21,721 bases of DNA from a virus: positions 1 to 21,721 of the IMG/VR virus record IMGVR_UViG_3300040809_000450. One strand, given 5' to 3'. The notes beneath the pieces were generated by a model that worked only from the letters and a program-made list of their open reading frames with translations, ran no database searches and was not told where the DNA came from. Every line of letters starts with the position of its first letter. Position 1 is the stretch's first letter. The translations under genes and the position numbers were made by a program. Below are positions 795 to 21,374 of this stretch, in pieces.

Positions 795-847
795 AGCCCT
801 TGATGGTGTTTCCGAAATACGGATTCTTACCTTCAGGGGCTTTTTTA
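795..847 (+). terminator. Intrinsic terminator before the tape measure gene
   Basis: AGCCCTTGA (795-803) pairs with TCAGGGGCT (833-841) as nine base pairs with one G-T wobble. An inner stem TCCG/CGGA sits within the loop, and a run of six T follows at 841-846. It lies in the only sizeable gap of the tail operon, 18 bases before the tape measure start. It could trim the dose of tape measure mRNA relative to upstream structural genes. Confidence 0.75.
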
Positions 848-865
848 TTATTAGGAGGCACACGA

Positions 866-3800
866 ATGAGTGGTGTAAATATTAAGATCCGTGCTGATGC
901 CCGTCAAGCACAAAACGAGATATCTAAAATTAATAAGTCTATGGGCAACCTAGACCAACAAGCAAGAAAGGCAACAGATACCTTCCGTAGGCTTGCCATT
1001 GGTATTACTGCGGCTTTTGGTGCTAGTGCCTTTACAAAAGGGATTAGCCGAGCTGCCGACTCTATGACTATGCTAGAGAACCGGACACGGCTTGTTACGA
1101 AAACAGCAAGACAAACTACCGCTACGCTAAACGAGTTGTTTAACGTGGCTGCAAGGTCAGGTTCTGACGTAGATGCTGTTGCAGAAACATTTAACCGTTT
1201 TGGGTTAGCTCTAAAAGACTCTAGAAAACCAATAAAAGAACTTTTGTTAGTTACGGAGGCAGTACAACAAGCAGCTGCTATTTCTGGATCTGGAGCTCAG
1301 TCGGCAAAGGCTGCCATTATCCAGTTAGGTCAGGGTCTGGCATCTGGACAGCTCCGTGGTCAAGAACTTAATTCTGTTCTTGAACAAATGCCAAGGCTAG
1401 CTCAAGCCATTGCTGATGGTATGGGTATTCCTTTTGGGAAACTTCGTGAAGAAGCTATGGCAGGTAAAGTTACTGCTGAGGCGGTATACAGCGCTATTTT
1501 AAAAGGCGCTAAAGATATTGATTCTGAGTTTAAAACACTTGAATTTACAACTGGGCAGTTTGCAGTAATTTTTGCCAATGAGCTAAAACGAGCAGTTGCT
1601 GTATTTGATGATGTCACTGGTTTTTCAGACGATATTAAAGTAGGTCTAAAGATTGGGGCAGATGCCGCTAGGTTCTTTGCTCAAAACTTTAGACGCTATA
1701 TTCAACTTGCTGGCCTAGAATTAATGGTTCTTAAATCCGATCTAAGATTCTTTGCAACAGACTTTAAATCATTCTTTTCAGATTTATTTTCTGGAGACTT
1801 TGACGCAAAAAGCTTTGTTGATGGTGTTGCAAAATCTATTGATAATGTAAAAGCTTCTATGAAAGAGAAGTTTACAGTTGTATTGAATTTCACTACAGAA
1901 AAAGTAGACCTTATAAAAGACAAGTTCCCGGGCATAAATGATGCCTTAACAGCCTTAACAAATTTCAAAGATGCCGTAATCCGCATATTTGAGGAGATTG
2001 TAGACAGGGTGCTTAGAAGATCTCCTTGGACAGGTCTCTTTGATCCCAATCACGAAGAGCCGGGGGCTCCTGCCATCGGTAATACTAAGTTTATGTGGAA
2101 ATGGCTCAGTAAGGCTCTTAATGCTTTAACCGCCTTTAAGAACTCTGTAATTGATAGATTTAAGTCGATTAATATAGGTGCTACTGAAAAGTGGGCAGAG
2201 CTTAGGAACTCTATCGAGACCAAAGGGATTACCGTAACTATCTCGGAGCAAACAGAGAATGTGTGGAATAGTCTTAGAACATCTTATAACGAGCTAATTC
2301 AATATCTCTCTACAAAGGAGATAGACACCCCCAGTGGTTTACAGATGGTTGAAACAAACTTTGGTCTTGCTATCCGGCGTATCAAAGAGCAATATAATAG
2401 CCTAGCGGATAGTATCCTTAAAGATGAGGTGTTTGTTGAAGGGCTTGGGCAAAACGGCGGGGAGTTTGTTCAGGTAGAGGCTGCCTGGATTAAAAGCTTC
2501 CGTTCTGGTTTAGATGAGGCCCAAGGTTATTTTGATTCTTTTGTTGAATTACTTAAAAATACTCCGTTAGTAATTGGTATTACCGTATTAGCTACTAGCA
2601 TTAAAGAAAACTTTGATAAAGTTTCTGAAGATATTACAACCTATTTTGACGAAAATAGTGATCAGCTTGCGGCGGCAGTTTCGGCTAGTATTGCCTTTTT
2701 CTTAAGCCAAAAGCTTAGAGGGATTGTTCTTGGACCTGCCTTGGCAACAGCCTTTTTAGCTAGTGCTGGCACTCTTGGAAATAACCAAGAATTCTTAGAT
2801 GCTGCTAAAAAGGTAGCAACGGGTTTTGGTAAAGCTATTAAAGACGTATTTTCAGACGATGGGGATGATGTTGTAGCAGATATTTTAGACGGGCTTAAAA
2901 ACCTTGCGTCTACAGTTGCGGATGGTTTCCTAGAAGGTCTATTTGGGCCAGAGTTTGAGAATGATGTAGTTCAAAAACTAACTACGGCTCTAGTAATTGC
3001 CACAGGTGCCTTTATACTCGCCCCGGGGTTAGTAACAAGTTTAGGAAACATAGCACTCAAGATTTCTTCGGTTATGTTTGGAGCCCGTTGGGCGGGATAC
3101 TTAGCAGATGGTTTTGTAATTGGTATTACAGACGCAGCGGATATGGTCAAGGGGCGAAAGCGTATACAAACCGCACTAGAAAACCTTGGTCTTAACATAG
3201 GGCAAGGTATTCGCAAAGGTGCTTTTGGATTGATCGCAGGGGGTATCCTCGGTTATCAAATTAATGAACTCTTCGATATCGACCAGACCTCAACAGAAGG
3301 TATTGGCGTAACTATTGCTACCTCAATTGGTACTGGTATCCTTTCTTATGCGCTTTATGATTCTGTCGCTGCCTTGGTTGCAAGAGTTGGTGCTTCAGCA
3401 GGAGTAATTGCCGCTTCTACCTCTCTTGGTGGGACAATTAGTGGCTTTATTGCCGCAGGTATTGCCGCTGCACCGTTTGCTATTATTGCAGCCGTAGGTG
3501 CTGCGATTGGTCTTGCTGTTGTTAAAGGTGTTACTTATTTTAACGACAGAGAAATAAGTAAAAACGCATCTATTAACTTAAGCCTTGGGGTGTCTACTGC
3601 TTTAGACAGAGCGTCACTAGGTAGAGCGAATGCTAAATTAAAAGCACCTTTAGATAAGTTTATCGCAGAGATCAGTGATACCGCCGAAGATAATATCAAC
3701 AAAGGGCTTGTAGGTGCTGAACTTATCGATGCAACCTTTGCAAACGATATTGTTAATGAATTCGAAAAGAAGCTCAATGATACTCTTAAGAAACGTGGCG

Positions 3801-6319
3801 TCTTTGAAGACCCAACTGAGCTTACCGAGGCATTGCGCCTAAACTTCCCAGGCTTCCAGTTTGATGAAGCTGAAGTTAAAAATATGGCCGAAATGGGCTA
3901 TCTGGACTTAAGTGAGCTTCTTACAAAGGGTACACTGTTTAAGAAACCTATCGATATTGCCCCAGATCTTGCTCTTTCAGCCGAAAGTAAGGTAGATTTA
4001 GACACTATCCGCAACTCATTACTAGATGCTGGTGCGGCTAATGCCGGGGATATCCTTGCGGAGACCTTGACTAAAATCTCTGAATCTCCTATTATTACTC
4101 CTGAACAACTTACTTCGCTAGACCAAGGCTCTACAGCAATTGAAAAGTTAGCGTCTGCGTTTGAAAGGTTAGGGCAGGTTGTTAGGGATGCTACTGGCTT
4201 TAGCTTCTCCTTTAATAACACTAAATCTGTTATGGATAACTATTCTACCTCTGCGTTTTCTTCAGGGGGTAGAGTAAGCGGAGCTGGCACAGGAACCTCT
4301 GATGACATCCCAGCGATGTTGTCTAATGGTGAATATGTAATGCAGCAATCTGCTGTACAGAAGTTTGGCCCTGATTTTATGGATGCTGTTAATTCTGGCA
4401 CGGTACCTCAGTTCCGAAACGGTGGCGGAAGTATCGGGGATTTGGCTCAGCTAGCAACGAGCGCTGGTACGGGAATCGGCGCTTATCTAGAGGGGAAAAC
4501 TTTTGCAAATGTTCTTGCAGAGCTAACTGGCACGAGTGATGAAAACGTAACTAAGCAAGTAAACACTTTACTTCCAGAATTAGCTAGTATTATGAACGAG
4601 CCTATGACTGCTCCTAATACTGTTGCTGAACTAGAGTCAATAACTGGTGCTAACGTACTTGTTAATCCAAATGGTGTTGTCGATTATGTTGCATCAAGGG
4701 CAGCTCTTTCAAGCGGAAGTTTTGCTTATGAAAATCAAGGTGGGCTAGTCGGGCTTGTTGATGCTGTACTTTCACGAATGGGTCTTGAACTCCCTTATCT
4801 TCCTGAAACTCTTTCAGATGTTTTGCCGTTTGCTGCCGACTCCTTAAAATTAGCCTCGGGCGTCATGGGGTTTCTTGGCGATTCTCAAGTAAAGAAATGG
4901 AAGCCAAAGATTAGAGCAGTTGATGCTTTCCTTATGAGCCAAAGTGAAGACAAGCAAAGAGGTGCTCTTAGGGACTCATTCTTCCAAGATGGACTTCCTG
5001 AATTTCCTAGAGGCGCTCTTTATGGTGGTGTAGCAGGAGTTTCTTCCGCCATACTTGGATCTGGATTTAAAGTTATAAAAGGTCTTGGAAAAACTCTAAG
5101 CAGTTTAGCCAAGGGTGATATAAGGGGCGCAGGGCTTGGAGCCTTAAGTAGCGTAGGTACAATTGCTAAAACAGTTGCTATGGGCGGCGTTATTGGCGCT
5201 GCTGTTCAAGGGGCTATTGGCTCTGTTGTCGGGGGTTCAATCTATACCCTAACAGGCATGATTAATGGTTTATTTGCGGATTCAAAACAAGAAGGGTTTC
5301 CTTCGTCAGGAGTAATGGCTTCTGCTGATCCGCAGTATTTTAACTCTGGCGGCTCAGTCAGTGGACCTGGGACTTCGACATCTGACGGCGTCCCAGCAAT
5401 GCTTTCTAATGGCGAATATGTAATGCAAGCCTCGGCTGTCCGTAAATTCGGTCCAGGATTTATGGCTAGTATTAACGCAGGGATTGCCCCTATTTTCCGG
5501 GCACCGGGCGGGGATACTAAGTCAGCCGCTTCCATTTTAGGTGTTGAAACTGAGAGTTCTACTTCCGCTACTATCCGAAGAGTTCTTGCACAAATAAGGC
5601 AAGCGGAAGGGCGTCGTGATGCTGTTGGTGCTGAAGAGGCTGTAAAACTTAGACAAGCATTGCAAGATCTTTATGAAATAACCGCCGAGCAAGTTGCTGT
5701 TCTTGAAGAGGGAGGCGAGGGCGCAAAGGCAGTTGTTGGTAATGCAGATGCTAATAAAAAGCGTCAAGAGGCGATAAAAGACTTTACCGAAGAATTCAAA
5801 AATGAACTTGCATCGGGGCTTTCCTATGCTCTTAAAACAGGCGATTTTAAAGGTGCTCTTAATGGTATTCTTGATACTTTCACCTCCAAGATAATTGATA
5901 ACTTTGCCTCTAATTTCGCAGATAGTCTTACATCAGGCTTTGATTTTGAAAAGATCTTTGATGCATTCGGAAGCGGCGGCACGGGCGGTGGCTTTGGCGG
6001 AGGCCTCGGGAGCCTGATCAAATCAGGCCTTGGTTGGCTCAATATCCCAGGGTTTTCTCAAGGTGGCGTTGTGCCTAGCACACCGTTTTCTCAAGCAGGT
6101 AAAGACTCTGTCCCTATCTTAGCTATGCCGGGTGAGGTTGTTCTTTCCAGGAATGATGTTCGAAACATGGAAAGCAACAAAGGCTCTAATACACAATCCT
6201 TTAACATCAACGTCCAAGGCGATGTATCAAGACAGACTCGTAGAGAGATTGTCAAGATGATACCTCAAATTACTAGTGGTGTTAACTCACAAAACAAAGA
6301 GTCTAATTATAGACGATAG
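866..6319 (+). CDS. Tape measure protein (tail length determinant)
   Basis: The protein has 1817 residues from the ATG at 866, chosen because AGGAGG lies 8 bases before it; an upstream in-frame ATG at 800 is inside the terminator. The first 250 residues look like the phage tape measure N-terminal domain: amphipathic helices, then GQGLASGQLRGQELNSVLEQ and PRLAQAIADGMG. Residues of roughly 560-930 contain long hydrophobic Ala/Gly/Ile/Val runs, which could cross the inner membrane during DNA ejection. Two copies of a Gly-rich PAMLSNGEYVM module lie near 1132-1190 and 1492-1552, with a diverged third near 1730-1765. At about 1.5 angstrom per residue, it predicts a tail near 270 nm, so a long-tailed virion. 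The C-terminus, with FNINVQGD and a basic end, is typical of the family. Confidence 0.93.
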   Translation: MSGVNIKIRADARQAQNEISKINKSMGNLDQQARKATDTFRRLAIGITAAFGASAFTKGISRAADSMTMLENRTRLVTKTARQTTATLNELFNVAARSGSDVDAVAETFNRFGLALKDSRKPIKELLLVTEAVQQAAAISGSGAQSAKAAIIQLGQGLASGQLRGQELNSVLEQMPRLAQAIADGMGIPFGKLREEAMAGKVTAEAVYSAILKGAKDIDSEFKTLEFTTGQFAVIFANELKRAVAVFDDVTGFSDDIKVGLKIGADAARFFAQNFRRYIQLAGLELMVLKSDLRFFATDFKSFFSDLFSGDFDAKSFVDGVAKSIDNVKASMKEKFTVVLNFTTEKVDLIKDKFPGINDALTALTNFKDAVIRIFEEIVDRVLRRSPWTGLFDPNHEEPGAPAIGNTKFMWKWLSKALNALTAFKNSVIDRFKSINIGATEKWAELRNSIETKGITVTISEQTENVWNSLRTSYNELIQYLSTKEIDTPSGLQMVETNFGLAIRRIKEQYNSLADSILKDEVFVEGLGQNGGEFVQVEAAWIKSFRSGLDEAQGYFDSFVELLKNTPLVIGITVLATSIKENFDKVSEDITTYFDENSDQLAAAVSASIAFFLSQKLRGIVLGPALATAFLASAGTLGNNQEFLDAAKKVATGFGKAIKDVFSDDGDDVVADILDGLKNLASTVADGFLEGLFGPEFENDVVQKLTTALVIATGAFILAPGLVTSLGNIALKISSVMFGARWAGYLADGFVIGITDAADMVKGRKRIQTALENLGLNIGQGIRKGAFGLIAGGILGYQINELFDIDQTSTEGIGVTIATSIGTGILSYALYDSVAALVARVGASAGVIAASTSLGGTISGFIAAGIAAAPFAIIAAVGAAIGLAVVKGVTYFNDREISKNASINLSLGVSTALDRASLGRANAKLKAPLDKFIAEISDTAEDNINKGLVGAELIDATFANDIVNEFEKKLNDTLKKRGVFEDPTELTEALRLNFPGFQFDEAEVKNMAEMGYLDLSELLTKGTLFKKPIDIAPDLALSAESKVDLDTIRNSLLDAGAANAGDILAETLTKISESPIITPEQLTSLDQGSTAIEKLASAFERLGQVVRDATGFSFSFNNTKSVMDNYSTSAFSSGGRVSGAGTGTSDDIPAMLSNGEYVMQQSAVQKFGPDFMDAVNSGTVPQFRNGGGSIGDLAQLATSAGTGIGAYLEGKTFANVLAELTGTSDENVTKQVNTLLPELASIMNEPMTAPNTVAELESITGANVLVNPNGVVDYVASRAALSSGSFAYENQGGLVGLVDAVLSRMGLELPYLPETLSDVLPFAADSLKLASGVMGFLGDSQVKKWKPKIRAVDAFLMSQSEDKQRGALRDSFFQDGLPEFPRGALYGGVAGVSSAILGSGFKVIKGLGKTLSSLAKGDIRGAGLGALSSVGTIAKTVAMGGVIGAAVQGAIGSVVGGSIYTLTGMINGLFADSKQEGFPSSGVMASADPQYFNSGGSVSGPGTSTSDGVPAMLSNGEYVMQASAVRKFGPGFMASINAGIAPIFRAPGGDTKSAASILGVETESSTSATIRRVLAQIRQAEGRRDAVGAEEAVKLRQALQDLYEITAEQVAVLEEGGEGAKAVVGNADANKKRQEAIKDFTEEFKNELASGLSYALKTGDFKGALNGILDTFTSKIIDNFASNFADSLTSGFDFEKIFDAFGSGGTGGGFGGGLGSLIKSGLGWLNIPGFSQGGVVPSTPFSQAGKDSVPILAMPGEVVLSRNDVRNMESNKGSNTQSFNINVQGDVSRQTRREIVKMIPQITSGVNSQNKESNYRR

Positions 6320-6351: not shown

Positions 6352-6699
6352 ACACAAAGCCCGTATAATAGAAGTGGGAGAAATTGGACCTCTATAATGA
6401 AGAAATGGGATAAACTATTTACTCGGAAGGGTGGCAAGCTCTATTGGAAAGAATCTCGTGGCAGAAAAGCTGCAGGATCCGAAGCTGGCACTAATCATGG
6501 TGACGGTTACAAGACTGTGCGGATAGACGGAAAAGCTGTTTATGTACACCGTATTGTAAAAGAGATGTCAACTAAAAAACCAGTCAAAAAAGAGCTGGAT
6601 CATAAAAATCGGAAGCGCTCGGACAACCGTCCAAGCAATTTAAAGCCGACAACACGATCTATGAATAATAAAAATCGTAAATCGTGGAATAAAAAATAA
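6343..6699 (+). CDS. HNH homing-type endonuclease
   Basis: The product is 118 residues from ATG 6343, or 100 from ATG 6397. Motifs fit the phage HNH_3 family: YKTVRIDGKAVYVHRIV (first catalytic His in VHR, residue 69), then LDHKNRKRSDNRPSNLK (Asp86-His87, Asn95, Asn99) and a basic C-terminus rich in Lys, Arg and Asn. Such enzymes nick or cut DNA and often act as free-standing homing endonucleases between phage genes. The start is uncertain. At 6343 the AGGAG overlaps the ATG, leaving no spacing, and a class I phage promoter (6372-6405) lies inside the frame with its own ATG at 6397. Family members usually begin just before a 'W..LF....G.LYWK' stretch, which here follows 6397. Confidence 0.8.
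   Translation: MASTQSPYNRSGRNWTSIMKKWDKLFTRKGGKLYWKESRGRKAAGSEAGTNHGDGYKTVRIDGKAVYVHRIVKEMSTKKPVKKELDHKNRKRSDNRPSNLKPTTRSMNNKNRKSWNKK
6372..6405 (+). promoter_or_regulatory. Class I phage promoter, copy 1 (inside HNH reading frame)
   Basis: This copy has the same length and phasing as the copies at 6783, 7557 and 8821: AAGTGGG at the 5' end and CCTCTATAATGAAGAAA at the 3' end. The middle differs (GAGAAATTGGA in place of the G/T-rich segment). Its ATAATG supplies the possible internal HNH start at 6397. Confidence 0.6.
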
Positions 6700-6706
6700 T
6701 AAAATT

Positions 6707-6732
6707 GGGATACCTACGGGTGTCCCTTTTTT
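6707..6732 (+). terminator. Intrinsic terminator after HNH gene, C(UACG)G loop
   Basis: GGGATACC (6707-6714) pairs with GGTGTCCC (6719-6726) around a TACG tetraloop closed by C-G. Six T follow. The stem has eight pairs with one wobble. It separates the tail/HNH transcript from the promoter at 6783. Confidence 0.88.
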
Positions 6733-6747
6733 ACCAAATCCGGTACT

Positions 6748-6777
6748 ATTTTGATCAAAAATGGCATAAAATAGCCA
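6748..6777. other. Two inverted repeats between terminator and promoter
   Basis: A 12-bp perfect palindrome TTTTGATCAAAA lies at 6749-6760. It is followed at once by TGGC-N8-GCCA at 6762-6777. Both sit just upstream of the class I promoter at 6783. They may be protein binding sites or only AT-rich symmetry; nothing in the window tells which. Confidence 0.3.
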
Positions 6778-6782
6778 AAAAA

Positions 6783-6816
6783 AAGTGGGGGTTTTTCACC
6801 CTCTATAATGAAGAAA
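6783..6816 (+). promoter_or_regulatory. Class I phage promoter, copy 2
   Basis: The element begins AAGTGGGGGTTTTTCAC and ends CCTCTATAATGAAGAAA. It is identical over 33 of 34 bases to the copy at 8821 and nearly so to the one at 7557. It lies in a non-coding gap, 41 bases before the next start. The core resembles the SP6/T7 promoter core (ACTATAGAAG / ACTATAGGG), and no -35 hexamer is conserved at sigma70 spacing. It is read here as a promoter of the phage-encoded RNA polymerase, with transcription starting in or just after the ATG AAG part. Confidence 0.77.
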
Positions 6817-6856
6817 GCAATCAGGCCGACTTCCTAAAATCCAAGTGGAGAATCAA

Positions 6857-7057
6857 ATGACTAAAGTATCAAATACAATCGACTCAATAATAGTAGCATT
6901 TGCTATGGCAGTATCAGGGCTGACTAAAGCTGTCATGGTACTAATAGCAAGCGGGACCGTACTTGCGGCAGTTTCAATAATACTACTTGCTATTTTCTCA
7001 TGGGTATCTGGTCCAACCCCGTATACTGCAGAGTGGTGGGCTATGCTAAAAAACTGA
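6857..7057 (+). CDS. Small membrane protein (holin candidate)
   Basis: The protein has 66 residues. The ATG at 6857 is preferred because GGAG lies 7 bases upstream; a GTG at 6845 overlaps that site. Residues 10-24 and 26-51 are hydrophobic (SIIVAFAMAVSG, then VMVLIASG through LLAIFSWV), giving one or two membrane segments, followed by a short polar end with three Trp/Tyr residues. It is the first gene behind a class I promoter and shares a cassette with a SleB-type hydrolase, so a holin or other membrane-active lysis or early protein is possible. I do not recognise a family. Confidence 0.6.
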   Translation: MTKVSNTIDSIIVAFAMAVSGLTKAVMVLIASGTVLAAVSIILLAIFSWVSGPTPYTAEWWAMLKN

Positions 7058-7085
7058 GAAAATTGACGCATCTATAATGATATAA
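7052..7085 (+). promoter_or_regulatory. Degenerate class I phage promoter
   Basis: Aligned on TCTATAATGA (7071-7080), this element matches the copy at 6372 through much of the 34-base length (AACTGAGAAAATTGACGCA against AAGTGGGAGAAATTGGACC) but lacks the final GAAGAAA. It begins inside the last codons of the preceding gene and lies 43 bases before the next start. Alternatively TTGACG at 7063 could be taken for a host -35 box, but its spacing to either nearby TATAAT is wrong. Confidence 0.45.
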
Positions 7086-7127
7086 TAATATATCACACAA
7101 CCAAGTGGAAACCAAGAGGAAAATCTA

Positions 7128-7490
7128 ATGAAAAATGTAATCACAGTAATTGCGCTATATATTGTAATGAATACTTCTGTACACGCAGAGCCTGAGTATG
7201 CATTGATACCTGTTGAAAATTCAGTGCAGTGTTCTAATACTGATGTAGCTATTGGCGCAGGTGTAGGGCTAGTATCTGCAGTAGTCATCGGTGTAACTAC
7301 AATAGCCGCCTCTAGTGTAATTGGCATTGCAGCACCACTAGGTGTAGTTGGTATAGCGGGGGCTACTTCAGGTGCAATTTTAACTAATTCTACTCTCCCG
7401 GCAATAGGCGCTGCTAGTGTATTGTTAGCACCTGTGATTGGTACCGCTGGGTTTTATGCATCCTGTGTATACAACTCAGCCACCAAGTAA
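7128..7490 (+). CDS. Exported, glycine-rich hydrophobic protein
   Basis: The protein has 120 residues. A basic N-terminus, hydrophobic core and a VHA site near residue 20 give a likely signal peptide. The mature part has two Cys (35 and 113), either side of two Gly/Ala/Val-rich hydrophobic stretches at about 40-80 and 91-112 (DVAIGAGVGLVSAVVIGV, then PAIGAASVLLAPVIGTAG). The Gly-rich helices and the possible disulfide suggest an inner-membrane or periplasmic protein, for example a spanin-like, pore-forming or superinfection-exclusion protein. No family is recognised. The ribosome binding site is AGAGGAAAA, 5-9 bases before ATG, and a weak class I promoter precedes it. Confidence 0.65.
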   Translation: MKNVITVIALYIVMNTSVHAEPEYALIPVENSVQCSNTDVAIGAGVGLVSAVVIGVTTIAASSVIGIAAPLGVVGIAGATSGAILTNSTLPAIGAASVLLAPVIGTAGFYASCVYNSATK

Positions 7491-7500
7491 AAATATTATG

Positions 7501-7522
7501 TGGGGCTGCTACGGTGGCCCCA
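7501..7522 (+). other. C(UACG)G hairpin without U tract
   Basis: TGGGGCTGC (7501-7509) pairs with GTGGCCCCA (7514-7522) around TACG, with two wobble pairs. It resembles the stem-loops at 6707 and 12540 but is followed by TTACTACAG rather than a T run. It may be an RNA 3'-end stabiliser, a processing site or a weak terminator after the 7128 gene. Confidence 0.5.
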
Positions 7523-7556
7523 TTACTACAGAATTGTACGGGCTTTGTGACTAAAA

Positions 7557-7590
7557 AAGTGGGGGTTTTCTACCCTCTATAATGAAGAAA
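7557..7590 (+). promoter_or_regulatory. Class I phage promoter, copy 3
   Basis: AAGTGGGGG, TTTTCTA, then CCCTCTATAATGAAGAAA: it differs from the 6783 copy only in the middle (TTTTCTAC against TTTTTCAC). It lies 18 bases upstream of the next start. It is followed by CCAAATGGAG, a leader and ribosome-binding sequence also seen with variations after other elements (CCAAGTGGA at 6842 and 7103; CCAAATGGAG at 12569). Confidence 0.77.
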
Positions 7591-7608
7591 CCAAATGGAG
7601 ACTGAGCT

Positions 7609-7848
7609 ATGCTTGAATTTATATCTGTAATATTTGTAGGGCTTTCACTAAGACTTCTTCTTGCAGCTATGTTCTATAGCATAACGAAGAGTTACCTACT
7701 TATACAACCAATGCCGTTTATCGCAATACCTTGCATGATTGGCATGATTTACTATGGTCATCAATTCGATGTCCCAACACTAATCGGAATATTCATTCTG
7801 GATATCCTATGGATTCCAGTGACACTTAACAAACTATCTAGGAGATGA
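7609..7848 (+). CDS. Small multi-pass membrane protein, unknown
   Basis: The protein has 79 residues. Hydrophobic segments lie near residues 3-22 (ISVIFVGLSLRLLLAAMF), 31-50 (PMPFIAIPCMIGMIYYG) and 56-72 (TLIGIFILDILWIPV), with a basic C-terminus (NKLSRR). GGAG lies 8 bases before ATG. It directly follows the class I promoter at 7557, and its stop overlaps an ATG of the next frame. Its size and topology would fit a three-helix holin, but there is no sequence signature to confirm this, and the smaller 6857 product competes for the role. Confidence 0.6.
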   Translation: MLEFISVIFVGLSLRLLLAAMFYSITKSYLLIQPMPFIAIPCMIGMIYYGHQFDVPTLIGIFILDILWIPVTLNKLSRR

Positions 7849-7850
7849 AG

Positions 7851-8144
7851 ATGTTTAAATTTTATCGTGGCACCTGCCAACGTGAAGCGCACGAACTTGT
7901 AAAAGATATTCAGACCCGGAATGTTACTCACTGGACTGACTCTTTTAAAAACGCTGCTAAGTACTCTAAAGGTGCTGTAGTAGAAATCATAATGGATGAC
8001 TTGCCACCCCACTTCCAACACTATAAGGGTGTGTGCGAGGGAGATGCTGCTCATGGAACTTTTTCAGAGTGGGTATTACCTCGTGATTACTTTGAAAACA
8101 GAGTATCTTGCTTTGTTGAAGAGTCTAAGGTCATTGCTGCATAA
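7851..8144 (+). CDS. Small YRG/WTDS protein, possible ADP-ribosyltransferase fold
   Basis: The product is 97 residues from ATG 7851, which has GGAG at an ideal 6-base spacing; the ATG at 7845 touches the GGAG. The order of motifs resembles the R-S-E ADP-ribosyltransferase layout: FYRGT (Arg6) on a first strand, HWTDSFKNAAKYS (Thr29, Ser31) before a strand GAVVEIIM, and FSEWVLPRDYF (Glu73) near the end. This is far shorter than classical enzymes, and a second acidic residue of an ExE motif is absent. Phage ADP-ribosyltransferases such as T4 Alt and ModA modify host RNA polymerase. The assignment here is inference from spacing and motif shape only; it could be an unrelated small phage fold. Confidence 0.5.
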   Translation: MFKFYRGTCQREAHELVKDIQTRNVTHWTDSFKNAAKYSKGAVVEIIMDDLPPHFQHYKGVCEGDAAHGTFSEWVLPRDYFENRVSCFVEESKVIAA

Positions 8145-8155
8145 GGAGCAAAAGA

Positions 8156-8419
8156 ATGAAAGTAGAACTTGAACTTTTCATTGATGGTCTTGATTGTACA
8201 CTTAACGCTGAAATGACTGACTACGGTGTTGTAATTCGGCATCGTGGTACATGGAATGAACCTGCCGAAATAGAAGTTGTAGAAGGTCCAGAATTTGCTA
8301 TTATCAATATCACTGATTGGGATGGTAATCAATGGACTCCCCAAGGTAAACAACTAGAAGAAGTTGATGACTTACTACACGAATGGTGGTATACTGAAAT
8401 AGAGGAAAACAGACTATGA
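8156..8419 (+). CDS. Acidic hypothetical protein
   Basis: The product has 87 residues, is acidic (many Glu and Asp), and is predicted beta-rich: alternating strands MKVELELFIDG, TLNAEMTDYGVVIRH and FAIINITDWDG, then a C-terminal helix LEEVDDLLHEWWYTEIEE. AAGGAG precedes ATG by 7 bases. There is no membrane segment. Its stop overlaps the start of the hydrolase gene (ATGA), so the two are co-translated. No family recognised. Confidence 0.7.
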   Translation: MKVELELFIDGLDCTLNAEMTDYGVVIRHRGTWNEPAEIEVVEGPEFAIINITDWDGNQWTPQGKQLEEVDDLLHEWWYTEIEENRL

Positions 8420-8823
8420 TTATGACAGCAGCAGCAACATGCTTAGCCTTAAATATCTTTTTTGAGGCACGACATGAAAATATAACTGGTCAACTTGCAG
8501 TGGCAGAAGTCACTTTAAACCGTGTAAAAGACAAGCGTTACCCGGATAACGTCTGTGATGTGGTCTGGGAGGGAAAACAATTCTCATGGACTCACGATGG
8601 GAAACATGACAATCCCTCTCGGATGTCTTATCTAGATCGTAAGGCCTGGAAGCGTATCAAAGAGCTATCAGTTAGCATCTTAGATGGGTCTACTAATCTA
8701 ATGGGGCTCTCATCAACACACTACCACTCTGTGGAAGTCTCGCCATTTTGGAAATCCCACTACAAGTTTGATGGTCAGATTGGCAACCACATATTCTACA
8801 CTAATGAAACTCCCCACAAATAG
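8416..8823 (+). CDS. SleB-like cell wall hydrolase (endolysin)
   Basis: The protein has 135 residues and matches the Hydrolase_2 / SleB family of lytic transglycosylase-type spore-cortex and phage lysis enzymes. Diagnostic features are CLALNIFFEARHE (catalytic Glu17), AVAEVTLNRVKDKRYP, a VCDVVWEGKQFSW segment, THYHS and PFW, and the family ending GNHIFY. No signal peptide is visible, so release through a holin from one of the neighbouring membrane genes is expected. It would break peptidoglycan at the end of infection. ATG 8416 has GAGG upstream; a second ATG two codons on is possible. The TAG stop forms the first bases of the promoter at 8821. Confidence 0.85.
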   Translation: MIMTAAATCLALNIFFEARHENITGQLAVAEVTLNRVKDKRYPDNVCDVVWEGKQFSWTHDGKHDNPSRMSYLDRKAWKRIKELSVSILDGSTNLMGLSSTHYHSVEVSPFWKSHYKFDGQIGNHIFYTNETPHK

Positions 8824-8854
8824 TGGGGGTTTTTCACCCTCTATAATGAAGAAA
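8821..8854 (+). promoter_or_regulatory. Class I phage promoter, copy 4 (overlaps hydrolase stop)
   Basis: TAGTGGGGGTTTTTCAC followed by CCTCTATAATGAAGAAA: this is 33 of 34 bases like the 6783 copy, the only difference being the first A changed to T, which makes the TAG stop of the upstream gene. The next gene starts 15 bases after the element. Confidence 0.77.
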
Positions 8855-8869
8855 CCGAAAGGACTAACC

Positions 8870-9031
8870 ATGACTAATTCTGAATACCGCAAATCCCCTG
8901 AGTTCATGAAAGAAATTTCTTTTAAAGAACTTGTAAAGGCAATTGACGAAAAGTGGAGTCATACTTACGAATCAGTGCTTGACCTTGACTATGAAGAATA
9001 TATGGAAGAGGTTGAACAAACAAACCAATAA
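8870..9031 (+). CDS. Small hypothetical protein behind promoter copy 4
   Basis: The protein has 53 residues from ATG 8870, with AAAGGA 6-12 bases upstream. It is hydrophilic and mostly helical (EFMKEISFKELVKAIDEKW, then DLDYEEYMEEVEQ). The ATG inside the promoter core at 8846 is in the same frame, which would add eight residues starting MKKPKGLT, but that would need leaderless initiation. Codon phase and the good ribosome binding site support a real gene; no family is recognised. Confidence 0.6.
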   Translation: MTNSEYRKSPEFMKEISFKELVKAIDEKWSHTYESVLDLDYEEYMEEVEQTNQ

Positions 9032-9325: not shown

Positions 9326-9360
9326 CCCTCTCTGCCCTAGCGGGTGGAGGGGGCTTTTTA
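9326..9360 (+). terminator. Strong intrinsic terminator ahead of the RNA polymerase region
   Basis: CCCTCTCTGCCC (9326-9337) pairs with GGGTGGAGGGGG (9342-9353) around TAGC: twelve pairs including three wobbles, then CTTTTTA and, slightly further on, a run of ten T (9369-9378). It isolates the small-gene cassette from the RNA polymerase transcription unit. Confidence 0.85.
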
Positions 9361-9518: not shown

Positions 9519-11714
9519 ATGAATCCAATGGAACTTCTAATAGAGCAAGTCAGTGCACAACAAAAGTTCTTAATGAATATAAAAGGAGATAAACCTGATA
9601 CAAGAAAGAAAGCTTGGAAACTACATGACAAAGAACCTAGAGAAATAATTGAGTGTACCTATGGTCAAATACTTTCTCACATTGAAATAAAAAGTGAGCT
9701 AGCTAACATGATTGCTAGCATAGGCGGCTCTTTAAATCGCCGATTCCGACTAAGGGTTGACGAGATTGAGGAAGCCCATCTTGGCTGGGAAGTTTTCAAA
9801 GCCTACCTAGATATAGGAATCCTAGCAATACAAAAGAAGAGAGGTATGTCTAATGGACGCCGAAAGAAACACTCTTCATATCACATCACAGTAAAAGACT
9901 CAGAGGCTCTAAACTCTATCATGGACTTGGTAGATACAGAGTCTGTTGAGTTATTTCCAACCGCCCATAAACCTGCGGAGTGGGTCTCTGGAGAATACTA
10001 TCATGAAACAGGGTTTCCTCTAATTAAAAAGAGGCCCCATGAAGACGCAATATCGGCTGTAAAAGAAGGTAATATGGATTATCTGCTAGATGTCCTAAAC
10101 AAACTATCTTCTACAGGGTGGCGCATAAACAAGTTTGTCTTTGAGACATTCCAAGCTGCCAAGTACAGTAAAGACAAAACACCCTTCAAAGCAATGAAAG
10201 AAGTTGACCCTATTAAAAGGGCTTCTTTGGAAGTTGAAATGAGAGCTATCGAGAGACTAGCAGAAAGGAATATTGACAATGCTTTCTACCATCTGTATAA
10301 TGTTGATTTTCGTGGTCGCATATACCCTAACACTGCGTTTCTACATGAGCAATCCTCTGACAATGCCAAGGGGCTTCTATTGCTCGACACCCCCGTACCT
10401 CTAGGTAAAATGGGGTTCTATTGGTTATCTGTACACACAGCTAATATGTGGGGCAATGATAAGGTCTCTTTAGATGATCGTGCCCAGTGGGTCCAAGATA
10501 ACTTCTTTGATATCTGCTCTTATGTAGGAGATCCTATGAAAAACACAGGGTGGATGGACGCTGACAAGCCATTCTGTTTTCTTGCCTGTTGTAAGGAGTT
10601 AAATGACTTAGCGGAGTGGGGTGTTCACAGAGATCCTGAAGACTTCCCTTCTTGCCTTCCTATCTATATTGATGGCTCAAATAACGGTGTTCAGCACTTA
10701 ACCGCCATGTCTAAAGATGAAACTGTTGCTCCACTAGTAAATCTTGTCCCTCAAGAAGTCCCTGGGGATGTATATATGTTTATCGCAGAGCATAGCCAAG
10801 AACAAGTTCGCAAAGACTTCTTAGCTGCAGGTGATGAAGTAAATAACCGCTTTGTTGAGGTATTTACTAAAATCAAAGACTTCAAAGCGGATATTAATAA
10901 GTATAGCAAAAACCCTAAGAGCCAACTATATAAGGATGCAATGGCTCGATTTAACGAAGGCCGAAACCATCTATGGGAAATCAAGGGTAAACTTGGTCCT
11001 GCTTTCTGGAACGCCATCGAGGATAAAAAGATATGGCGCAAGACAGTAAAACGCCCAGTTATGGTATTAGGCTACGGCGGCACTAAGCAGGGCATGAAGA
11101 CTATGGTAGAGGAAGATACTTATGATCTTTCTGAGTATCTTCGTGACAAAGACAAAGCTTGGTCGTCCTACCTAGGCGGTCTAATCTACGATACTTGCTA
11201 TGCTAAACTAAGAGGACCAGCTAATTTGCTTCTTATGTTTGAAACGTTGGGCGCTCAGGAAAACGAAAAGAATAGGCATGTTGCCTATGACCAGATTGTT
11301 ACTGGATTTAAAGTTGTTCAACCCTACACTGCAACTAAACTAAAACAAATAGAGTTACAGCACGGGGAAGATATGTATCGTATTAGCATCCACATCCGAA
11401 AAGAAAAGGAGCTTAACAACAAAAAACAGAAACAATCATTAGCGCCCAACATCGTACATAGTGTAGACGCTGTTCATGTGGCTATGTATGTTAAAGAAAC
11501 AGAGTACCCTGTAACTGTAGTTCATGACTCCTTCGGGTGTCACGCAGGTAATATGGATAAAGCCTTCCTCGATGTAAGAAGCCTGTTTATTGACCTGTAT
11601 GAAAGAGAACCTCTTGAGCATATCTTTGCTCAGATGGATGCACTAAACTTAATTCCTAAAAAGGGAAACCTTAAAATTTCATCAATAATGGAGTCTGACT
11701 ATGCATTTGCCTAA
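9519..11714 (+). CDS. Single-subunit T7-type DNA-directed RNA polymerase
   Basis: The product has 731 residues and transcribes phage genes from phage promoters without host subunits. Family landmarks are clear: YNVDFRGRIYPNTAFL (T7 'YNMDWRGRVY'), IYIDGSNNGVQH with the first catalytic Asp385 (T7 Asp537), VKRPVMVLGYGG with Lys511 and Tyr519 (T7 Lys631 and Tyr639), and the palm segment NIVHSVDAVH followed by VVHDSFG with the second catalytic Asp670 (T7 Asp812). The C-terminus ends AFA, as T7 ends FAFA. It is about 150 residues shorter than T7's 883, and the deficit lies before the catalytic Asp, i.e. mainly in the N-terminal and promoter-recognition side. GAAGGAA precedes ATG; a host-type promoter lies upstream. 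The end overlaps the next gene by 14 bases. Confidence 0.95.
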   Translation: MNPMELLIEQVSAQQKFLMNIKGDKPDTRKKAWKLHDKEPREIIECTYGQILSHIEIKSELANMIASIGGSLNRRFRLRVDEIEEAHLGWEVFKAYLDIGILAIQKKRGMSNGRRKKHSSYHITVKDSEALNSIMDLVDTESVELFPTAHKPAEWVSGEYYHETGFPLIKKRPHEDAISAVKEGNMDYLLDVLNKLSSTGWRINKFVFETFQAAKYSKDKTPFKAMKEVDPIKRASLEVEMRAIERLAERNIDNAFYHLYNVDFRGRIYPNTAFLHEQSSDNAKGLLLLDTPVPLGKMGFYWLSVHTANMWGNDKVSLDDRAQWVQDNFFDICSYVGDPMKNTGWMDADKPFCFLACCKELNDLAEWGVHRDPEDFPSCLPIYIDGSNNGVQHLTAMSKDETVAPLVNLVPQEVPGDVYMFIAEHSQEQVRKDFLAAGDEVNNRFVEVFTKIKDFKADINKYSKNPKSQLYKDAMARFNEGRNHLWEIKGKLGPAFWNAIEDKKIWRKTVKRPVMVLGYGGTKQGMKTMVEEDTYDLSEYLRDKDKAWSSYLGGLIYDTCYAKLRGPANLLLMFETLGAQENEKNRHVAYDQIVTGFKVVQPYTATKLKQIELQHGEDMYRISIHIRKEKELNNKKQKQSLAPNIVHSVDAVHVAMYVKETEYPVTVVHDSFGCHAGNMDKAFLDVRSLFIDLYEREPLEHIFAQMDALNLIPKKGNLKISSIMESDYAFA

Positions 11715-11906: not shown

Positions 11907-11934
11907 GGGTAAAAATACCCGCAAATAATGACTA
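11907..11934 (+). promoter_or_regulatory. Class II promoter-like element, copy 1 (before SSB)
   Basis: A 23-base sequence at 11912-11934 (ending CCCGCAAATAATGACTA) recurs exactly at 21352-21374; both copies lie 49 bases before the start of a replication gene. It shares ACCC followed by ATAATGA with the class I core (ACCCTCTATAATGAAG), with one extra base between. Here an inverted repeat GGGTA-AAAA-TACCC (11907-11920) overlaps the 5' half. No host -35 box is conserved. It is likely a second set of phage RNA polymerase promoters or an operator. Confidence 0.55.
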
Positions 11935-21353: not shown

Positions 21354-21374
21354 AATACCCGCAAATAATGACTA
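21352..21374 (+). promoter_or_regulatory. Class II promoter-like element, copy 2 (before exonuclease)
   Basis: The 23 bases are identical to 11912-11934 and start at the stop codon of the preceding gene. A small hairpin ATTCCC/GGGAAT (21381-21397) follows, in the leader of the exonuclease gene. It is probably a phage RNA polymerase promoter placed before a replication gene that needs extra expression. Confidence 0.55.

Follow-up and report, generated by a model that had tools for sequence, protein, structure and literature searches.

Clustered promoters shared by a family of marine siphoviruses and a putative virion RNA polymerase as their likely reader

Early phage genes are typically transcribed by the host RNA polymerase (RNAP). 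The viral DNA examined here, the complete IMG/VR record IMGVR_UViG_3300040809_000450 (a siphovirus fragment of 21,721 bases, hereafter called the window), carries a repeated element upstream of several short genes and, further along, a gene for a T7-type RNAP. This arrangement raises the question of whether the element, which we name P1, is a promoter and, if so, which enzyme reads it. A first-pass annotation made from the sequence alone had paired P1 with the polymerase encoded nearby. Judging from its conservation and placement, P1 is a real phage promoter common to a family of marine bacterial viruses (Naomviridae and relatives). Furthermore, we consider it likely that P1 serves as the early promoter of a different enzyme, a single-subunit RNAP borne in the virion, following the logic known from phages N4 and P23-45. 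A second promoter class with T7 architecture, named P2, would then belong to the polymerase encoded near P1.

A repeated element upstream of short genes

The four near-identical elements that had been described on the + strand are confirmed in the window sequence. The 17-mer CCTCTATAATGAAGAAA, with up to three mismatches allowed, yields four matches in the window (0.08 expected), and the family consensus AAAASTGRGRN8SCMTCTATAATGA yields five (6370, 6781, 7050, 7555 and 8819; 0.00 expected). The additional copy at 7052 had been considered degraded. Instead, it is intact: its sequence AAAACTGAGAAAATTGACGCATCTATAATGATATAA fits the type-B consensus found in most relatives without a single mismatch, and a stem-loop follows it. 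The repeat reported as 34 bases long is real, but the conserved length is instead 37 bp, spanning about -28 to +8 relative to the inferred start. Two sub-types of P1 can be distinguished. They differ at positions -20, -18, -9 and -7, which read G, G, C and C in type A and A, A, G and A in type B. The sites in the window are as follows.

6369-6405, + strand: P1 type A; inferred +1 at A6397; likely HNH start codon ATG at 6397-6399
6780-6816, + strand: P1 type A; inferred +1 at A6808; 49 nt upstream of ATG 6857 of a small membrane-protein open reading frame (ORF)
7049-7085, + strand: P1 type B; inferred +1 at A7077; consensus type-B site
7078-7095, + strand: predicted 5'-terminal RNA stem-loop, UGAUAUA-AUAA-UAUAUCA, encoded from +2 of the type-B site
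7554-7590, + strand: P1 type A; inferred +1 at A7582; upstream of ORF 7609-7848
8818-8854, + strand: P1 type A; inferred +1 at A8846; upstream of ORF 8870-9031

The elements had also been said to point toward short gene starts, and indeed all five lie upstream of short ORFs, with leaders of 24-51 nt at four of them. At the first site, the ATG within TATAATG is the likely HNH start codon, and its location at the inferred +1 means that the mRNA would be leaderless. The HNH start codon is also located inside P1 in several relatives without upstream in-frame starts, which again implies leaderless mRNA, and in two genomes (G018 and G017) an internal ATG further into the HNH gene is an alternative start. 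At the last site, the 3' arm and T-run of a terminator-like hairpin (8811-8829) make up the upstream half of the P1 element at 8818, resulting in a composite terminator-promoter.

Conservation and placement of P1 across the family

By RNAP sequence, the closest named relatives of the window are DSS3_VP1 and DSS3_PM1 (Naomviridae, 45% identity), and many closer ones are present in IMG/VR. A motif search of the genome and its relatives, which the first-pass annotation had proposed as a check, revealed P1 family-wide, on the coding strand, and between the tape-measure and RNAP genes. In a weight matrix built from 41 non-redundant sites, the conserved positions span about -28 to +8, counted from the A that follows CTATA. 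Across RNAP-bearing loci, 109 matches above 12 bits are on the coding strand, versus 4 weaker ones on the opposite strand. Strong sites number two to five per genome in the 12 near-complete or long genomes and all fall between the tape-measure and RNAP genes, with a few weak matches (16-24 bits) elsewhere in those genomes. Among the 35 RNAP loci that extend 3.4 kb or more upstream, P1 is missing from that of the distant Pelagibacter phage Kolga and present in the other 34. Six P1-bearing contigs without RNAP (those checked) stop 0.15-3.3 kb past the site, where RNAP would follow. Both CTATA and a purine at +1 (122 A, 7 G) occur in all 129 non-redundant sites.

A 46-nt P1 query searched against 50,697 phage records scored above chance in DSS3_VP1 and DSS3_PM1 only. 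Matches in a scan of genome contigs were at the chance level, with one exception. The Roseobacter genome of Thalassobium sp. R2A62 carries a 38-bit P1-like site just upstream of a phage-integrase gene (L253:1450), which could be a phage satellite or chance. In addition, a weak P1-like site of 23.6 bits is kept in two related contigs (L366/G061 at ~34225 and L357/G045 at ~38565), far from the main cluster, and DSS3_VP1 carries another at 67796 (22.5 bits).

The inferred transcript start and a predicted 5' stem-loop

A perfect stem of at least four pairs from +3 is found at 60 of 93 type-B sites (2.3 expected in shuffles) and at 0 of 35 type-A sites. The stem arms covary, such that arms other than GATAC pair in 20 of 50 cases, whereas 2000 swaps gave 2.1 on average and 8 at most. 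Even a single genome can hold arms of different sequence and loops of different length, with pairing retained. Position +2 is paired in 64 of 64 stems (61 T:A, 3 T:G), and position +1 pairs at random. For window positions 7077-7095, the stem-loop is also predicted by ViennaRNA. The simplest reading of these patterns is that the P1 transcript begins at the A (+1) after CTATA and that, at type-B sites, a stem-loop is formed from +2. The RppH enzyme of Bacillus requires at least two unpaired 5' nucleotides (PMC3997798). If the same rule applies in the hosts of these phages, then the type-B stem-loop is possibly a shield against 5'-dependent decay.

Inverted repeats upstream of the start, as would form a hairpin of the N4 virion polymerase type, number 2 versus 2.2 expected for type A and 10 versus 5.2 expected (maximum of 9 in swaps) for type B. 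With pairing that is not significant for type A and marginal for type B, an N4-like upstream hairpin promoter was rejected.

Two T7-type polymerases and a second promoter class

The first-pass annotation correctly recognized a T7-type RNAP encoded downstream of the P1 elements. This protein of 731 amino acids (aa) matches PF00940 (E 7e-78) and has the T7 fold. Beyond its gene, the sequence AATACCCGCAAATAATGA occurs exactly at 11914 and 21354, where 0.01 occurrences within three mismatches are expected in the window.

9519-11714, + strand: gene for the 731-aa T7-type (non-virion) RNAP
11914-11931, + strand: P2 promoter AATACCCGCAAATAATGA with T7 architecture; inferred +1 at G11930; upstream of the ssb gene; candidate promoter of the 731-aa polymerase
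21354-21371, + strand: P2 promoter, second exact copy of AATACCCGCAAATAATGA; inferred +1 at G21370; upstream of ORF 21422

The P2 layout is AATA-N8-TAAT/TAAA-G, and the T7 promoter consensus is AATACGACTCACTATAGG. In the 400 bp that follow the 731-aa RNAP gene, this layout is found in 34 of 40 distinct regions, compared to 2 on the reverse strand and 2.0 in shuffles. Each genome repeats its own version of P2 (68 forward versus 2 reverse copies in 13 genomes), and DSS3_VP1 carries 12 copies of AATAGGGTGCGTTAAAGA across 75 kb. The P2 core varies with the lineage of the 731-aa polymerase (CCCGCAAA, GGGCGGAA, CCTGACGT and CTTGACCC; the version in locus L013 is AATACGACGTACTAATGA), as is expected of a T7-type polymerase and its specificity loop. 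P2 is probably the promoter set of the 731-aa polymerase. A conserved host promoter immediately 5' of the RNAP gene is unsupported (mean of 8.85 versus 8.59 of 12 matches in shuffles). A perfect sigma-70 consensus (TTGACA-17-TATAAT) is present at window positions 10273-10301, within the RNAP coding sequence.

A second PF00940 match emerges in 9 of 12 family genomes, within an ORF of ~1,450-1,760 aa in the head-gene cluster. The genomes without a match (G045, G013, G001, G057 and others) are fragments, and relatives of this fusion occur in 361 IMG/VR stretches. In DSS3_VP1, the fusion is gene 28 (product of 1,463 aa), which is annotated as 'minor head protein-like', and its polymerase part is not annotated as such. 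Residues 1-340 match head-morphogenesis families (phrog_241, E 2e-53; PF04233, Mu F-like, E 2e-13), and residues ~900-1430 match RNA polymerase (phrog_414, E 5e-25; PF00940, 27 bits). The protein retains the catalytic motifs NDASASG, FYG and HDAF, and D1060 (motif A), Y1136-G1137 (motif B) and H1377-D1378 (motif C) are invariant among homologs. In an AlphaFold2 model of the fusion (predicted local distance difference test score of 82), the C-terminal part most closely resembles T7 and mitochondrial polymerases (E 2e-19). The gene follows the portal gene in DSS3_VP1 and therefore, by analogy with P23-45 and N4, the fusion protein is probably a virion RNA polymerase (vRNAP). No description of the fusion, P1 or P2 was found in the literature searched, which lacked the original DSS3_VP1 paper.

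Both polymerase genes are interrupted in some relatives. Group I introns split the 731-aa RNAP gene in G045, and this gene is split in G054 and G061 too. Group I introns also split the vRNAP gene in G017 and G021, directly after motif B (FYGAG). The intron coordinates are L356:19152-19336, L394:3106-3460 and L391:13410-13700.

Which polymerase reads P1?

On a tree of 23 vRNAP rows, one branch parts type-A from type-B genomes with 100/100 support, and this split is present in all bootstrap trees. In contrast, type-A genomes are not one group on the tree of the 731-aa polymerase; two changes are forced, and a single clade is rejected by the approximately unbiased (AU) test (p = 0.0008). A recombinant genome, G004 (L011), bears on the same point. 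Its 731-aa polymerase groups with the type-A clade of the window, and most of its genes resemble type A or favor neither type. Its vRNAP gene, in contrast, is by far B-like (2039 versus 1357 bits, the highest B/A ratio among 39 ORFs), and type B is also the sub-type of its P1 sites. Residues that discriminate A from B in vRNAP occupy 0 of 292 columns in residues 1-300 (the head part), versus 99 of ~1150 in the rest. Thus, the co-segregation of P1 sub-type with vRNAP, together with the constancy of P1 and the existence of a separate P2 set, favors vRNAP as the reader of P1.

Several observations weigh against this assignment. The specificity-loop region of vRNAP is nearly alike in A and B, with one discriminating column. 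There is a single A/B switch on the vRNAP tree, which leaves that event and the G004 recombinant as the basis of the correlation. Moreover, the window's own vRNAP gene is off the contig, and the window is a type-A genome with one type-B site. An endolysin gene, as present in the P1 cluster, would be expected among late genes no less than among early ones. Finally, a single enzyme can read two unrelated promoter types, as does the RNAP of Klebsiella phage KP34 (PMC6834552).

This KP34 precedent also lends some credibility to the model of the first-pass annotation, in which the adjacent 731-aa polymerase reads P1 plus the unrelated P2. P1 is indeed on the same strand and 0.5-6.6 kb upstream of the 731-aa polymerase gene in all family loci, and its core is like that of T7 at -5 to -1. 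However, the P2 core shifts with the lineage of the 731-aa polymerase while P1 remains nearly constant, which makes it unlikely that this enzyme reads both. The P1 sub-type conflicts with the tree of the 731-aa polymerase, the T7 AATA box (-16 to -13) is found in P2 only and not in P1, and a second T7-type polymerase is encoded. We therefore regard the adjacent enzyme as a doubtful reader of P1. The kind of element had been judged correctly, in that P1 is a family-wide promoter set with a T7-like CTATA/A core from -5 to +1. It also differs from the T7, SP6 and K11 promoters in its extra conserved bases at -28 to -18 and its start with A. The pairing with the neighboring polymerase is the part that is probably wrong. 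A single specificity-loop residue of the 731-aa polymerase was also considered as the cause of the A/B difference and was rejected because the candidate columns are confounded by phylogeny.

It is far less probable still that the host RNAP reads P1 early, with TATAAT as a -10 element or via an alternative host sigma factor. Transcription by host RNAP is usual for early phage genes (PMC4496689), and P1 holds a perfect TATAAT upstream of short genes. Nevertheless, the -35 hexamer is depleted at every usable spacing from this TATAAT (TTGACA matches of 1.47 versus 2.55 in shuffles), and the covarying stem-loop begins 2 nt after TATA, which would put the RNA start too near TATAAT for sigma-70. A sigma-70 promoter was rejected on these grounds. 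In addition, P1 was not found in other phages of the 50,697-record collection, and its sub-type tracks the fusion polymerase. No sigma factor genes were found in 12 family genomes, and a phage-encoded sigma factor was rejected on this basis. Inverted repeats near promoters are frequently operators, and P1 sites are clustered, which might suggest that the repeat after TATA is a repressor operator and that the conserved block serves for composite regulation and not as a promoter for a polymerase. We give this explanation hardly any weight, as the arms and loop length vary even in one genome with pairing kept, the repeat is absent from type-A sites, and the stem begins at +2 in every case.

If vRNAP is indeed the reader of P1, the infection might proceed as follows. 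The enzyme, joined to the Mu F-like minor head protein next to the portal, would enter together with the DNA, and because it is carried in the particle, transcription could begin on entry without a host enzyme. It would read P1 as double-stranded DNA, perhaps with contacts at -25 to -18 and -9 to -1, and start at the A after CTATA. It might thereby transcribe the cluster of small genes, HNH and endolysin, and perhaps also the neighboring 731-aa polymerase gene. The 731-aa polymerase would afterwards transcribe the remaining genome from P2. RNAs from type-B sites would start with a stem-loop from +2 that protects the 5' end from decay.

Genome context of the P1 cluster

The window encodes a tape measure (PF20155), HNH, a cell-wall hydrolase, the T7-type RNAP, an ssb-like protein and a family-A DNA polymerase. 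Features that frame or fall within the P1 cluster are listed below.

800-6319, + strand: tail tape-measure gene; left boundary of the P1 cluster
6397-6699, + strand: HNH endonuclease gene; start codon likely inside a P1 promoter
8416-8823, + strand: cell wall hydrolase (endolysin); inside the putative P1-driven cluster
9326-9353, + strand: hairpin resembling an intrinsic terminator; downstream of the last P1 site and upstream of the RNAP gene

A stretch of 178 bp (window positions 8177-8354) shares 90-92% identity with the Roseobacter phages CRP-13 and CRP-4, and the rest is unrelated at the DNA level. This match hints at recent gene exchange and offers a clue to the host group.

Comparison with known transcription systems

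Few phage groups are known to carry a polymerase in the virion; the search for precedents yielded N4-type podoviruses, crAss-like phages and P23-45. Compared with the promoters and polymerases of Autographiviridae phages (T7, SP6 and K11), P2 shares the T7 arrangement of an AATA box, a variable core, TAAT/TAAA and a G at +1, and the 731-aa polymerase has the T7 fold. P1 has CTATA at -5 to -1 in common with these promoters, but it is confined to one small cluster. As in KP34, there are two promoter classes per genome; one polymerase reads both in KP34, whereas this family has two polymerases (PMC6834552). A homolog of the fusion is found in EBPR siphovirus 1, whose gp47/gp49 (JF412302) comprise a head protein and a T7-type polymerase that are homologous over 89% of the fusion length at 31% identity. 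There (L475:25771-31144), the homolog is split by an HNH gene and the polymerase part is annotated as hypothetical. The P1 motif was not found in the partial genome of EBPR siphovirus 1.

In DSS3_VP1, the DNA has deoxyuridine in place of thymidine (PMC12697855), and its polymerases would therefore need to read U-containing promoters. Uracil-substituted DNA may be poorly read by the host polymerase. Taking all parts together, it seems reasonably likely that this widespread siphovirus family uses a fusion of a T7-type polymerase with a minor head protein, a double-stranded P1 promoter and, often, a 5' stem-loop for host-independent early transcription, in DSS3_VP1 on deoxyuridine DNA. If true, a T7-type virion polymerase that is joined to a minor head protein and reads a double-stranded promoter defined by its sequence would be a new architecture and would account for the onset of transcription in these marine phages. 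The system would also provide two new polymerase-promoter pairs (P1 and the fast-diversifying P2) for in vitro use and for studies of how promoter specificity evolves.

The closest parallels to P1 itself are with N4 and P23-45. N4 has a virion RNA polymerase with early promoters (PMC4496689). This family shares with N4 a T7-type single-subunit polymerase tied to a virion protein, and it would likewise have few, clustered early promoters and a second phage polymerase that takes over. The N4 vRNAP is a podovirus protein of ~3,500 aa, unlike the family polymerase, which is a minor-head fusion of ~1,460 aa in siphoviruses. N4 promoters require an extruded DNA hairpin upstream of +1, whereas P1 is without a clear upstream repeat and has its hairpin downstream, in the RNA. 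The Thermus siphovirus P23-45 has a virion RNAP fused to the tail tape protein plus a non-virion RNAP, and two promoter motifs (PMC10770324), one of which is AT-rich and serves pre-early genes. It resembles the family described here in being a siphovirus, in encoding two phage polymerases of which one is joined to a virion protein, and in having two separate promoter motifs. Its polymerases are of the two-barrel (cellular) type with the tape measure as partner, whereas in this family both are T7-type and the partner is a minor head protein. By this analogy, the P1 system would work like early transcription in N4 and P23-45, with a differing promoter, polymerase type or fusion partner.

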